This document shows positions 16,196 to 24,865 of a stretch of 64,000 nucleotides of DNA, piece after piece. A program made the translations under genes and the position numbers. Origin of the DNA: Ahrensia sp. (GTDB lineage Bacteria > Pseudomonadota > Alphaproteobacteria > Rhizobiales > Rhizobiaceae); assembly GCA_002698425.1 (NCBI GenBank), contig NZXU01000087.1:3809-67808 (forward strand), read 5' to 3'. Below the pieces are notes generated by a model. It saw only the letters and a program-made list of their open reading frames with translations. It searched no databases and was not told the DNA's origin. Numbering within the stretch: the stretch's first letter is position 1; each line of letters starts with the position of its first letter.

Positions 16196-18217
16196 ATGAC
16201 GGACGTCGCCTCGATCCAGCCCATCGGCGCCGCGAGGCCGCGGCGGACCGGTGCGTGGATCATGGGCGCGGCGGCTGTCCTGTTCGTCCTGTTCTGGCAA
16301 TATGGCGAGCCGCTCGCCGAATGGGCCTTCGACTATCCGAGGAAGATGGAGGTTCCGGTCGCGAAGTGGATCAACATATTCACCAAGTGGCTGTTGAACG
16401 ACGCCTCCTTCGGGCTTTTCACCTTCACGGATCTGACCCGCTTCATCGCGGCGGTCGTCAACGTGCCCTACAAGGCGGTGCTGAGCCTCTTGTCGACCGG
16501 GTTCCTCTCGGGGCAGGGATCGGGCGCGATACAGCTCGTGCCGCCGCTTCCCTGGATCGCCGTCATCGTCGTGGTTGCGCTGATGGGGCTTTACGCCGGC
16601 GGCCGGCGGCTGGCCCTGGTCGTTTCGCTTTGCTTCATCTTCATAGCGGTGTTCGGCCAGTGGACGAGCGCGATGGTCACGCTCGCCTCGATCCTCGTCG
16701 CCGTGCCGCTCGGTGTCGTCGGCGGGCTGCTGCTCGGCATCGGCGCCTTTCGCTGGCGCTGGCTCGACCGTGCGCTGTTGCCCGTGCTCGACCTGATGCA
16801 GACGATCCCGGTCTTCGCCTATCTGGTGCCGATCCTGTTCATGTTCGGCTTCGGCGCGACGGCGGCGGTGGTGGCGACGTTGATCTACGCCATGCCGCCG
16901 ATGACCCGCGTGACGACGCTGGCGTTGCGCCGGGTGCCGCCCGAGGTGAAGGATCTCGGTCAGATGATCGGCTGTTCGCAGCGCCAGATGACCTGGCGGG
17001 TGCTGGTGCCGTCGGCGAAGGAAAGCCTGCTGGTGGGCATGAACCAGGTGATCATGCTGTCGCTGAACATGGTCATCATCGCCTCGATGATCGGCGCGGG
17101 CGGGCTCGGTTTCGATGTGCTGGCGGCGCTGCGGCGGCTCGATTTTGGCGCCGGGCTGGAAGCCGGTTTCGCGATCGTGGCGCTGGCGATCGCGCTCGAC
17201 CGGCTGAGCCAGGCCTTCGCCAACCGGCAGGCGAAACCGGCTTTGCATGAGCCGCGCGGTTTCGTCGCGAACAATCCCTATCTGCTGGCGGCGCTCGTCT
17301 TCGTGGTCATTGCGGGCGTCGCCGGCCTTTTTGTTCCCGCCGTCCAGGCCTATCCGGACGCGCTGACGATCTCTACGGGCACCTTCATGTCGCGCGTCGT
17401 CGAGTGGATCAATGTCAACTTCTTCGACACGCTGGAAGCGATCAAGAACACGCTTTTGATCGAGGTGCTGGTGCCGTTCAAGCGGCTGCTGCTCGGCTTT
17501 CCCTGGATCGGCGTCGTCGCGATCCTCGGCGTTGCCGGCTGGGTGCTGCGCGGGCCGGGCTTGGCCCTGCTGGTCGCCGTGCTCTCCTTCCTGATCGCCG
17601 CCACCGGCCAGTGGGAAAAGGCGATGATCACGACCTATCTCTGCGGCATCTCGGTGCTGTTCGCGACGCTGATCGGCACGCCGATCGGTATTGCCGCGGC
17701 GGAGAAGGAACGGCTTTGGCGCTGGGTGCAGCTGGCCATCGACACGCTGCAGACGCTGCCTTCCTTCGTCTACCTGATGCCGGCGGTGATGCTGTTCCGC
17801 GTCGGCGATTTCACGGCGATGATCGCGGTGGTCGCCTATTCGATCGTGCCGGCCATCCGCTACACGGTGCTGGGCATCCAGCGGGTCGATCCGCGTCTGA
17901 TCGAGGCCGGCAAGGCGATGGGCTGCACGGAATGGCAGATCCTGACGCGCATCAAGCTGAAGCTCGCCCTGCCGGAAATCATGCTCGGGCTGAACCAGAC
18001 CATCATGTTCGCCCTGTCGATGCTGGTGATCACCGCGCTGGTCGGCACCCGCGACCTCGGTCAGGAGGTCTATATCGCTCTGACCAAGGCCGATCCGGGC
18101 CGCGGCCTTGTCGCGGGGCTTGCCGTCGCCTTCATCGCGATCATCTCCGACCGGCTGATCTCGGCGGGCGCGATGCGGGCGCGCAACCGGCTCGGGATTT
18201 CGGAGGAAGGGCAATGA
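16196..18217 (+). CDS. betaine-type ABC permease, tandem fusion of two permease domains
   Basis: 673 residues, about twice the usual ProW/OpuAB length, because two BPD_transp_1 domains are joined. The first (about 130-340) has the coupling loop region EVKDLGQMIGCSQRQMTWRV. The second (about 430-660) has RLIEAGKAMGCTEWQILTRI. About 12-14 membrane segments in total. The halves differ clearly, so this is an old fusion. One polypeptide would form the full membrane channel with a dimer of the single ATPase. The end overlaps the kinase start by ATGA. Confidence 0.88.
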   Translation: MTDVASIQPIGAARPRRTGAWIMGAAAVLFVLFWQYGEPLAEWAFDYPRKMEVPVAKWINIFTKWLLNDASFGLFTFTDLTRFIAAVVNVPYKAVLSLLSTGFLSGQGSGAIQLVPPLPWIAVIVVVALMGLYAGGRRLALVVSLCFIFIAVFGQWTSAMVTLASILVAVPLGVVGGLLLGIGAFRWRWLDRALLPVLDLMQTIPVFAYLVPILFMFGFGATAAVVATLIYAMPPMTRVTTLALRRVPPEVKDLGQMIGCSQRQMTWRVLVPSAKESLLVGMNQVIMLSLNMVIIASMIGAGGLGFDVLAALRRLDFGAGLEAGFAIVALAIALDRLSQAFANRQAKPALHEPRGFVANNPYLLAALVFVVIAGVAGLFVPAVQAYPDALTISTGTFMSRVVEWINVNFFDTLEAIKNTLLIEVLVPFKRLLLGFPWIGVVAILGVAGWVLRGPGLALLVAVLSFLIAATGQWEKAMITTYLCGISVLFATLIGTPIGIAAAEKERLWRWVQLAIDTLQTLPSFVYLMPAVMLFRVGDFTAMIAVVAYSIVPAIRYTVLGIQRVDPRLIEAGKAMGCTEWQILTRIKLKLALPEIMLGLNQTIMFALSMLVITALVGTRDLGQEVYIALTKADPGRGLVAGLAVAFIAIISDRLISAGAMRARNRLGISEEGQ

Positions 18218-19101
18218 GCGCGGAAGGAAAGATCGCTGCTCTGCCCTGCTGGACCGGCAACGTCGCCATGGAGCCGCTGACCGGCGGGCTGTCGAACGAG
18301 AGTTGGCTGGTCAAGGACGGCGCGGGAAAGCATGTCGTGCGGTTCGGCAAGGACTATCCGTTCCATCACGTCATCCGCGAGCGCGAAATTTCGGTGGCCC
18401 GCGCAGCGCATGAGGCCGGATTTTCGCCGAAGGTGGAATATTCGGAACCGGGCGTCATGGTCTCGGCCTTCCTCGAGGCGCGGACATGGACGGAAGAGGA
18501 CATGCGGGCGCAGCCGGAGCGGATTGCGCAGCTCTTGAACGATTTTCATCACAAGATGCTGGCGGCGGTGTCCGGGCCGGGCTTCATGTTCTGGGTGTTC
18601 CACGTCATTCGGGACTATGCACGCACGCTGAAGGCCGGCGACAGCAGCCATGTTGCCGAGCTGCCGCACTACCTGGCGCTCGCCGAGGCGCTGGAGGCCG
18701 CCCAGGCGCCGTTGCCGATCGTCTTCGGGCACAACGATCTGCTGCCGGGCAATTTCCTCGATGACGGCAAGCGGCTTTGGCTGATCGACTTCGAATATGC
18801 CGGTTTCAACACGGCCATGTTCGATCTCGCCGGCGCGGCGTCCAATTCGGGCATGGATGACGAGACGGCGGAACGGTTGCTTTCGACCTATTTCGGCCGC
18901 GCCTCCGACGCGGCGGTGAAGCGCTCCTTCGACGCCATGCAATGCGCCTCGCTGCTGCGCGAGGCGATGTGGTCGATGGTCTCGGAGCTGCACCTGGATG
19001 CGCCGGGCGTCGATTACGCCGCCTATACGCAGGAAAACCTCGCGCGGCTCGCCGCCGCGCTCGACCGCTATCACTCCAAACACGGAAAGACTTCATCATG
19101 A
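18214..19101 (+). CDS. choline/ethanolamine kinase-like phosphotransferase (APH fold), copy 1
   Basis: 295-residue protein-kinase-like fold. The nucleotide loop is LTGGLSNESWLVKD (about 22-35), the catalytic loop IVFGHNDLLPGNFLDD (Asp of HND, about 172) and the metal-binding DFE in LWLIDFEYAGFN. This is the choline-kinase/APH signature, so an ATP-dependent phosphorylation of a small hydroxylated amine is likely. It is linked by ATGA overlaps to the permease before it and the flavoprotein after it. The substrate is unknown; ethanolamine, choline and hydroxylated amino acids are all possible. Confidence 0.82.
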   Translation: MSAEGKIAALPCWTGNVAMEPLTGGLSNESWLVKDGAGKHVVRFGKDYPFHHVIREREISVARAAHEAGFSPKVEYSEPGVMVSAFLEARTWTEEDMRAQPERIAQLLNDFHHKMLAAVSGPGFMFWVFHVIRDYARTLKAGDSSHVAELPHYLALAEALEAAQAPLPIVFGHNDLLPGNFLDDGKRLWLIDFEYAGFNTAMFDLAGAASNSGMDDETAERLLSTYFGRASDAAVKRSFDAMQCASLLREAMWSMVSELHLDAPGVDYAAYTQENLARLAAALDRYHSKHGKTSS

Positions 19102-23963: not shown

Positions 23964-24865
23964 CGGACGGACTGGACGAGGCAAGACAGGCCATTGCGGG
24001 GATCCCGCTGCTCGCCAATGCGGGAGAACCGCAGCGGCTCGGCGGCCTGACCAATCTCGTCTTCCGCGTCGGCGATTACTGCCTGCGCATTCCGGGCAAG
24101 GGCACCGAAGAATATATCGATCGCGCCAACGAGGCGGTCGCGACGAAGGAGACCGCGAAGGCCGGGGTCAGTCCGGAACTCCTGCATTTCGACCCCGCGA
24201 CCGGCGTAATGGTGACGCGCTTCATCGAGGGCGGCGTGACGATGACGCCGGAGAATTTCGCCAGCCGCGACGGCGCGCCTGCACGGGCGGGCGAGGCGTT
24301 CCGCCGCCTGCACCTATCGGGCGCGGTTTTCCCGTTCCGCTTCGAACTGTTTTCGATGATCGACGACTATCTCGGCATATTGGCGACCAAGGACGTGGCG
24401 CTGCCCGACGGCTATCACGATGTGGTCCGGGAGGCGGAGGCGGTGCGCAAGGCGCTGGCCGTCAATCCTGCGCCGCTCGCCGCCTGCCACTGCGACCCGC
24501 TCTGCGAGAACTTCCTCGACACGGAGGGGCGCATGTGGATCGTCGACTGGGAATATTCCGGCATGAACGATCCGATGTGGGATCTCGGCGATCTTTCCGT
24601 CGAGGGCGGCTTTTCTCCGGCGCAGGAGGAAGAGATGCTGACCGCCTATTTCGGCGGCGAGGCGACGCCGCAGGATCGCGGCCGCATGGTCATCTACAAG
24701 GCGATGTGCGACCTGTTGTGGACCCTGTGGGGCCTGATCCAGCTGGCAAACGACAATCCGGCAGAGGATTTCCGCGCCTATGCCGATGGCCGTTTCGGGC
24801 GCTGCAAGGCGCTGATGGCGACGCCGGATTTCGCCGCGCATCTACGCGCGGTGGAAGGGCTTTAA
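23960..24865 (+). CDS. choline/ethanolamine kinase-like phosphotransferase (APH fold), copy 2
   Basis: 301 residues. Nucleotide loop [20 protein letters not shown], catalytic loop [17 protein letters not shown] (the family HxDxxxxN appears as HCDPLCEN) and metal-binding DWE in [20 protein letters not shown]. Distinct from copy 1 and closer to the LicA/choline-kinase pattern. Translationally coupled to the second flavoprotein. Its TAA stop lies in a TTAA that also ends the opposite gene. Confidence 0.82.

Follow-up and report, generated by a model that had tools for sequence, protein, structure and literature searches.

The DNA analysed here, referred to as the window, is a stretch of 64,000 nucleotides from Ahrensia sp. 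(contig NZXU01000087.1), and our subject is an operon in it that encodes an OpuA-type transporter, two kinases (K1 and K2) and two GcvT-type flavoproteins (GA and GB), divergent from the gene of a DeoR-type repressor. This locus contains two conserved kinase-demethylase pairs, K1-GA and GB-K2, with K1-GA as the core. The operon as a whole is best explained as a catabolic system for N-methylated ethanolamines, a proposal to which we give an even chance. Its substrate is rather probably N-methyl- or N,N-dimethylethanolamine, as would come from methylated phospholipid head groups. Methyl- and dimethylethanolamine are lipid head groups made by many Alphaproteobacteria.

The K1-GA pair was traced in several samples of genomes. 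Set A comprises 80 loci retained by a genome scan from 472 confirmed K1 relatives and is, for that reason, biased to close relatives. GA lies directly after K1 in 78 of these loci; one of the others is cut by a contig edge and one has no GA. The second sample consisted of 249 evenly drawn Hyphomicrobiales genomes, in which K1 was called at E up to 1e-30 and GA at 58% identity or more, a threshold set by us. K1 is present in 83 of them and GA in 79. Since both occur together in 77 genomes, as against 6 with K1 alone and 2 with GA alone, the association goes beyond chance. The two genes are adjacent within 400 bp in 64 of the 77 genomes, within 10 kb in 6, far apart in 1 and on separate contigs in 6.

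For 51 of the 83 K1 genomes (set B, L114-L164) the neighbourhood was available over up to 20 kb, the rest being represented by short loci only (30 genomes, L084-L113) or falling outside the set (2 genomes). GA is next to K1 in 38 of the 51 and elsewhere in the stretch in 4; 9 stretches have none, some of them from genomes that carry GA elsewhere. The third sample of 337 Alphaproteobacteria genomes includes 31 with K1, from which 30 stretches were taken (set C, bringing sets A, B and C to 161 stretches). K1 exceeds the identity threshold in 28 of these, at least one of which may come from a species already represented in set A; GA is next to K1 in 18, a contig ends there in 1, and there is no GA in 9. 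Among 398 Pseudomonadota genomes K1 is present in 22. In three loci (L121, 8341-9573; L122; L132) K1 stands away from GA, beside a kynureninase/class-V aminotransferase homolog, and GA sits on a different contig of the same genome.

K2 comes next after GB in 32 of the 34 places, both exceptions lying at contig ends (all fetched loci, with genomes G053 and G093 counted twice through overlapping stretches). It is these adjacency counts that define two pairs. A sequence-only reading of the window had taken a symmetrical kinase-GcvT-GcvT-kinase block as the unit, which we reject: several arrangements occur, the full K1-GA-GB-K2 order accounting for 17 of the 80 set A loci. Its expectation that the kinases would be conserved with the flavoproteins was borne out by the same gene-order comparison. 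The permease lies just upstream of K1 in 37 of the 80 loci. No K1 or K2 match was found in 18 control stretches (7.7-16 kb, from 10 of a 12-genome subset) around other DAO-GcvT paralogs, and none of the six peptide patterns applied to viral contigs gave a match.

The gene set and order given by the sequence-only reading agree with the open frames and with the Pfam matches, which were counted above curated cut-offs. The features, in window positions, are as follows.

13123-13881, minus strand: DeoR/GlpR-type repressor, divergent from the operon (PF00455, DeoRC; PF08220, HTH_DeoR)
13942-13979, plus strand: candidate operator of three CCACAAA/TCACAAA units, from motif enrichment in DeoR-side intergenic stretches
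14113-15087, plus strand: OpuAC substrate-binding protein (PF04069, 177.5 bits; nearest solved relative 4xz6)
15175-16194, plus strand: ABC transporter ATPase of the betaine/proline/choline type (PF00005; TIGR01186, 348 bits, cut-off 326.6)
16196-18217, plus strand: fused double ABC permease (two PF00528, BPD_transp_1, stretches; TIGR03416 choline permease, 409 bits, cut-off 363)
18214-19101, plus strand: K1, kinase of the choline/ethanolamine-kinase fold (Pfam Choline_kinase, 70.4 bits)
19098-21539, plus strand: GA, DAO-FAO_M-GCV_T-GCV_T_C flavoprotein and putative N-demethylase (dehydrogenase) paired with K1 (Pfam; similarity to dimethylglycine dehydrogenase, DMGDH)
21543-23963, plus strand: GB, second flavoprotein of the same DAO-FAO_M-GCV_T-GCV_T_C kind, paired with K2 (Pfam; 46% identical to GA)
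23960-24865, plus strand: K2, predicted LicA-like choline/ethanolamine kinase (PF01633, 67.5 bits; 528 bits to PDB 3dxq)

The reading frames of all eight named genes are open. ATGA overlaps of 4 bases join the permease to K1, K1 to GA and GB to K2; the remaining gaps measure 1 base (ATPase/permease), 3 bases (GA/GB) and 87 bases (binding protein/ATPase). K1 and K2 are 28% identical to each other, and the K1 of L001, the closest locus with a name, which is from a metagenome-assembled genome labelled Ahrensia sp., is 91% identical to that of the window.

Both kinases exceed the PF01633 cut-off, as expected of the choline-kinase fold, and are predicted choline/ethanolamine kinases, K2 being LicA-like. 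The catalytic H-x-D-x4-N residues and the metal Asp are kept in 148, 149, 149 and 149 of 149 K1 rows and, at each position, in 46 of 46 K2 rows. As for the WxxW motif, which we take to be the aromatic cage of the human and LicA choline kinases, K2 has both Trp in 46 of 46 rows; K1 has the first in all 149 rows and Val, Ile, Thr, Met or Leu in place of the second. K1 and K2 share the fold and the catalytic residues with choline kinase LicA and structure 3dxq, of which K2 is a close relative, but differ from them in their catabolic operon context and, in K1, in the replaced cage residue. The guanitoxin kinase GntI (NF041256; K1 131 bits, K2 153 bits, cut-off 357) and thiamine kinase (TIGR02721; 63.5 and 47.4 bits, cut-off 299) were considered and rejected.

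GA and GB each contain the DAO, FAO_M, GCV_T and GCV_T_C domains and the FAD-linked His. This His (position 48 of GA) is kept in 141 of 141 GA rows, which supports the covalent flavin claimed by the sequence-only reading. The folate-site Asp of the GcvT part, which we take to be residue 552 of dimethylglycine oxidase, is conserved in 139 of 141 GA rows and 30 of 30 GB rows. The His-Tyr dyad of the same oxidase (225/259 in the numbering of a reference title) is kept in 140 of 141 GA rows at either position and, likewise, in 30 of 30 GB rows. In a quick tree of 75 rows (37 of the 141 GA, 15 of the 30 GB and 23 paralogs; SH-aLRT support only) GA forms a single group (98), as does GB (100). Domain order, FAD-linked His, His-Tyr dyad and GcvT Asp are shared with the mammalian and bacterial DMGDH and sarcosine dehydrogenase (SARDH) of the choline-betaine pathway, and electron transfer flavoprotein (ETF) would be the likely acceptor here too. 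GA and GB differ from those enzymes in their genomic pairing with a choline-kinase-like kinase, in their own tree groups and in the ethanolamine-type neighbours found in some relatives. Trimethylamine N-oxide (TMAO) demethylase (NF053776) was rejected, as GA scores 168 and GB 179 bits against a cut-off of 1100.

Two small genomes bear on the acceptor. In L212 a GMC oxidoreductase, a binding protein, a permease, K1 and GA lie in one run, with no ATPase labelled, and genes for ETF-beta, ETF-alpha and ETF-QO are found downstream of GA on the same strand, past one opposite-strand open reading frame (ORF) of 181 codons. L206 has K1, GA, the opposite ORF and the ETF genes (78-88% identical) in the same arrangement, with no match to the GMC oxidoreductase, binding protein or permease of L212. 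Both genomes are of 1.4 Mb, with 31-32% GC in the stretch, and we infer that they belong to streamlined, SAR11-like lineages. This gene order fits GA as a putative ETF-dependent dehydrogenase, without proving it. In the window itself an ETF alpha-like gene, named from its translation, lies at 60260-61189 (plus strand), about 36 kb from GB, and is a possible partner as electron acceptor.

The ethanolamine-type substrate is suggested by the ethanolamine permease EutH and by a gamma-glutamyl (Eto) operon, which adjoin K1-GA in some relatives. EutH follows K1-GA in 6 of the 80 set A loci and, within set C, in L189. The genes of L061 (662.6 bits) and L075 (662.9 bits) pass the NCBIfam PRK15086.1-4 cut-off of 575, the others in sets A and C having been matched by tblastn only, and RefSeq independently names eutH at this position in Nitratireductor sp. 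OM-1. In the latter (L229, 3676-6815) a YkoF/thiamine-precursor-type ABC transporter adjoins DeoR-K1-GA-eutH, and genes of similar size are found near K1-GA-EutH in L033 and L048.

In L149 and L151 K1-GA comes after a complete six-gene Eto operon, identified by order and domains and not by sequence comparison with published proteins: RpiR, amidohydrolase, APC permease, glutamine-synthetase-like protein, aldehyde dehydrogenase and iron alcohol dehydrogenase. L147 has the same operon ahead of K1-GA, its permease reduced to a remnant. As L149 and L151 are closely related, with 81-99% identity over the six genes, the linkage amounts to about two independent cases. The ethanolamine operon of Phaeobacter sp. 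MED193 is described, in the available text of PMC10132767, as RpiR, gamma-glutamylglycine amidohydrolase, a TRAP transporter, ethanolamine gamma-glutamylase and two dehydrogenases, several of its genes being induced on phosphorylethanolamine. L149 and L151 share its order of RpiR, amidohydrolase, glutamine-synthetase-like protein, aldehyde dehydrogenase and iron alcohol dehydrogenase, but have the APC permease in place of the TRAP transporter, and the same text lists no kinase or demethylase in the Phaeobacter operon. In L197 GA is followed by an iron alcohol dehydrogenase that shares 59% identity with that of Eto. Across the Hyphomicrobiales sample an ortholog of the Eto glutamine-synthetase-like protein (at least 62% identity, again a threshold of our own) is present in 15 of 83 genomes with K1 and in 5 of 166 without it (Fisher p 9e-5, kinship ignored).

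Set B has genes of the inositol-monophosphatase family near DeoR, K2 or K1 in 7 of its 51 stretches, and set C in 1 of its 30 (there 40% identical); in Ruegeria sp. AD91A such a gene comes after GA. The one that was scored, in L134, is nearest to histidinol-phosphatase (237 bits, below the cut-off of 275), an enzyme whose substrate is an amino-alcohol phosphate. In L116 GA and GB are separated by a HAD-type hydrolase gene and a GATase-type gene. These neighbours weakly suggest a phosphorylated amino alcohol.

The binding protein scores 246 bits against 4xz6, presumably the TMAO-binding protein TmoX. It resembles this glycine betaine/proline-type protein over its full length and in Trp at several aligned positions; however, its Asp44, kept in all 66 rows of at least 60% identity, is Asn in 4xz6. 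An acid there could take the N-H of a tertiary or secondary amine in its protonated form. In 68 of the 80 set A loci a relative of DeoR reads divergently upstream of K1, either right next to it or in front of the transporter. The operator motif has 58 matches in 87 DeoR-side intergenic stretches versus 10.5 in shuffles, with at least one match in 42 of the 87; since these stretches, many of which are related, also served to choose the motif, the operator is a candidate only.

We propose the following pathway. The OpuA-type transporter would import N-methyl- and N,N-dimethylethanolamine, and the choline-kinase-fold enzymes would phosphorylate the hydroxyl group, K2, with its full aromatic cage, acting on the more methylated compound and K1 on the less methylated one. 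GB and GA would then take the methyl groups off one by one through FAD-dependent oxidation, the carbon passing to tetrahydrofolate (THF) as methylene-THF and the electrons to ETF. This division of labour between K2/GB and K1/GA is put forward tentatively. Phosphoethanolamine would be dephosphorylated, in some relatives perhaps by the nearby histidinol-phosphatase-like enzyme, and the ethanolamine would be used, in some genomes via the Eto pathway. DeoR relatives usually sense phosphorylated ligands, and there is a slightly less than even chance that a phosphorylated intermediate would be the inducer that relieves DeoR. That the kinase step precedes the demethylase step seems to us evenly balanced; this order is based on the phosphatase-like genes of some relatives, on the usual phospho-ligands of DeoR relatives and on the fact that each flavoprotein has its own kinase. 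It is conceivable, with a chance clearly below even, that the system is the phosphoethanolamine-methyltransferase ladder run in reverse (phospho-dimethylethanolamine to phospho-methylethanolamine to phosphoethanolamine), with one dedicated kinase per demethylase, and that it is widespread in Alphaproteobacteria, including streamlined 1.4-Mb genomes.

The sequence-only reading had proposed that a methylated amino alcohol is imported, phosphorylated and demethylated. The conserved catalytic residues support this and the EutH, Eto and phosphatase-like neighbours fit it, narrowing the substrate to ethanolamine derivatives. For choline, carnitine and hydroxyproline betaine, which it had listed among compounds to test, direct use by the flavoproteins is unlikely, since oxidation of the DMGDH type acts on secondary and tertiary amines and not on quaternary ones.

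Several observations weigh against the proposed pathway. K1 stretches without GA make up 9 of 51 in set B and 9 of 28 in set C, and the window operon contains no EutH, Eto or phosphatase-like gene. Eto is present in only 15 of 83 K1 genomes and EutB in 11 of the 80 genomes examined, by coordinates never near K1, for which reason ethanolamine ammonia-lyase was rejected as a linked next step; Eto and EutB are both absent from most K1 genomes. In L165-L169 a diverged K1-like kinase (31-38% identical) ends a complete six-gene Eto operon without GA, and the same genomes also have a separate K1. The phosphatase-like gene is found in none of the 80 set A loci (8 of 161 stretches overall). Nor was it matched in L147, L149 and L151; since the Eto pathway takes free ethanolamine, an unlinked enzyme would have to remove the phosphate there. 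Finally, a phosphate-specific residue or phosphate-binding signature was sought in GA and none was identified: Q55 and R57, in a QLR motif near the FAD-linked His, are common to GB and about 6 of 23 paralogs.

The steps might also run in the opposite order, GA and GB demethylating free methylethanolamines and the kinases then phosphorylating the resulting ethanolamine, which would go to a phospho-lyase or to lipid synthesis or would serve as trap and inducer. We regard this as rather unlikely, as two kinases, each tied to its own flavoprotein, would be redundant for a single end product, and the phosphatase-like gene of some relatives would reverse the kinase step. Another alternative is that GA and GB are ordinary sarcosine and dimethylglycine dehydrogenases of betaine breakdown and that the kinases serve another purpose, e.g. 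making an inducer. Similarity to DMGDH alone cannot tell GA from its paralogs: GA scores 565 bits to the mammalian enzyme and a paralog (L171:8818-11202), one of a likely DMGDH-SARDH pair, scores 563 (its neighbour 472). GA and GB also cluster (SH-aLRT 98) with a paralog group that we take to be sarcosine dehydrogenases, the cluster including seven paralogs. On the other hand, GA and GB fall into separate tree groups, genomes in which K1 and GA are unlinked still retain both, and EutH and Eto genes are their neighbours in some relatives. Moreover, at least 5 of the 12 genomes have another DAO-GcvT pair within about 2 kb (control stretches L171, L172, L173, L175 and L185, i.e. 5 of 18), its two genes belonging to two different paralog groups in the tree; these may be the true DMGDH and SARDH. 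We consider it improbable that GA and GB are ordinary dehydrogenases.

The same logic might apply to another amino alcohol, e.g. an N-methylated serinol, aminopropanol or amino-sugar alcohol. The kinase and binding-protein families are broad, K1 is without the second cage tryptophan, and in some loci other ABC-type transporter genes adjoin GA; EutH and the Eto operon, however, are described for ethanolamine, and we give such a substrate a small chance.

Every part of the proposed ethanolamine system belongs to a known family, but the combination of DMGDH-type demethylation with a choline-kinase-type kinase appears to be undescribed. Searches of the open-licence literature yielded no account of a kinase-demethylase module and no bacterial catabolic route for methyl- or dimethylethanolamine; PMC4744692 and PMC10130141 deal with choline catabolism and transporters, and their available text does not mention such a module. 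The coupling of a DMGDH-type demethylase to a kinase would supply a function for 3dxq, a structure named by family only. Roles would follow for many genes annotated as 'FAD-dependent oxidoreductase' and 'phosphotransferase' (K1 being present in 83 of the 249 Hyphomicrobiales genomes and in 31 of the 337 Alphaproteobacteria genomes sampled), and phospholipid turnover would be connected to one-carbon supply. If the reverse ladder is true, it would salvage head groups from methylated phospholipids into one-carbon metabolism.

Many loci, e.g. L051 (13344-14084, minus strand) and L059 (13324-13977, minus strand), have an S-adenosylmethionine (SAM) methyltransferase between GA and K2, facing away from K2. 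It gives weak UbiE-like matches and is matched in 22 of 80 stretches; our guess is that it is phosphatidylethanolamine-methyltransferase-like, which would fit lipid head groups.

Convergent with the window operon, at 24862-34620, lie an MR_MLE enolase-superfamily gene, whose 3' end overlaps K2, a MocR-type regulator and, named from their translations, a Pot-type polyamine ABC transporter, a GMC oxidoreductase and a PuuB-like oxidoreductase. This is apparently a separate catabolic locus. Its MR_MLE, MocR and Pot-type genes were rejected as part of the system, the 80 loci containing no MR_MLE or Pot binding-protein match and a sole MocR match of 33% identity, in L066. Further on, at 34685-48970, are nitrate/nitrite assimilation genes, likewise named from translations: an ANTAR regulator, NrtA-like proteins, a permease, ATPases, nitrite and nitrate reductases and a CysG-like gene.

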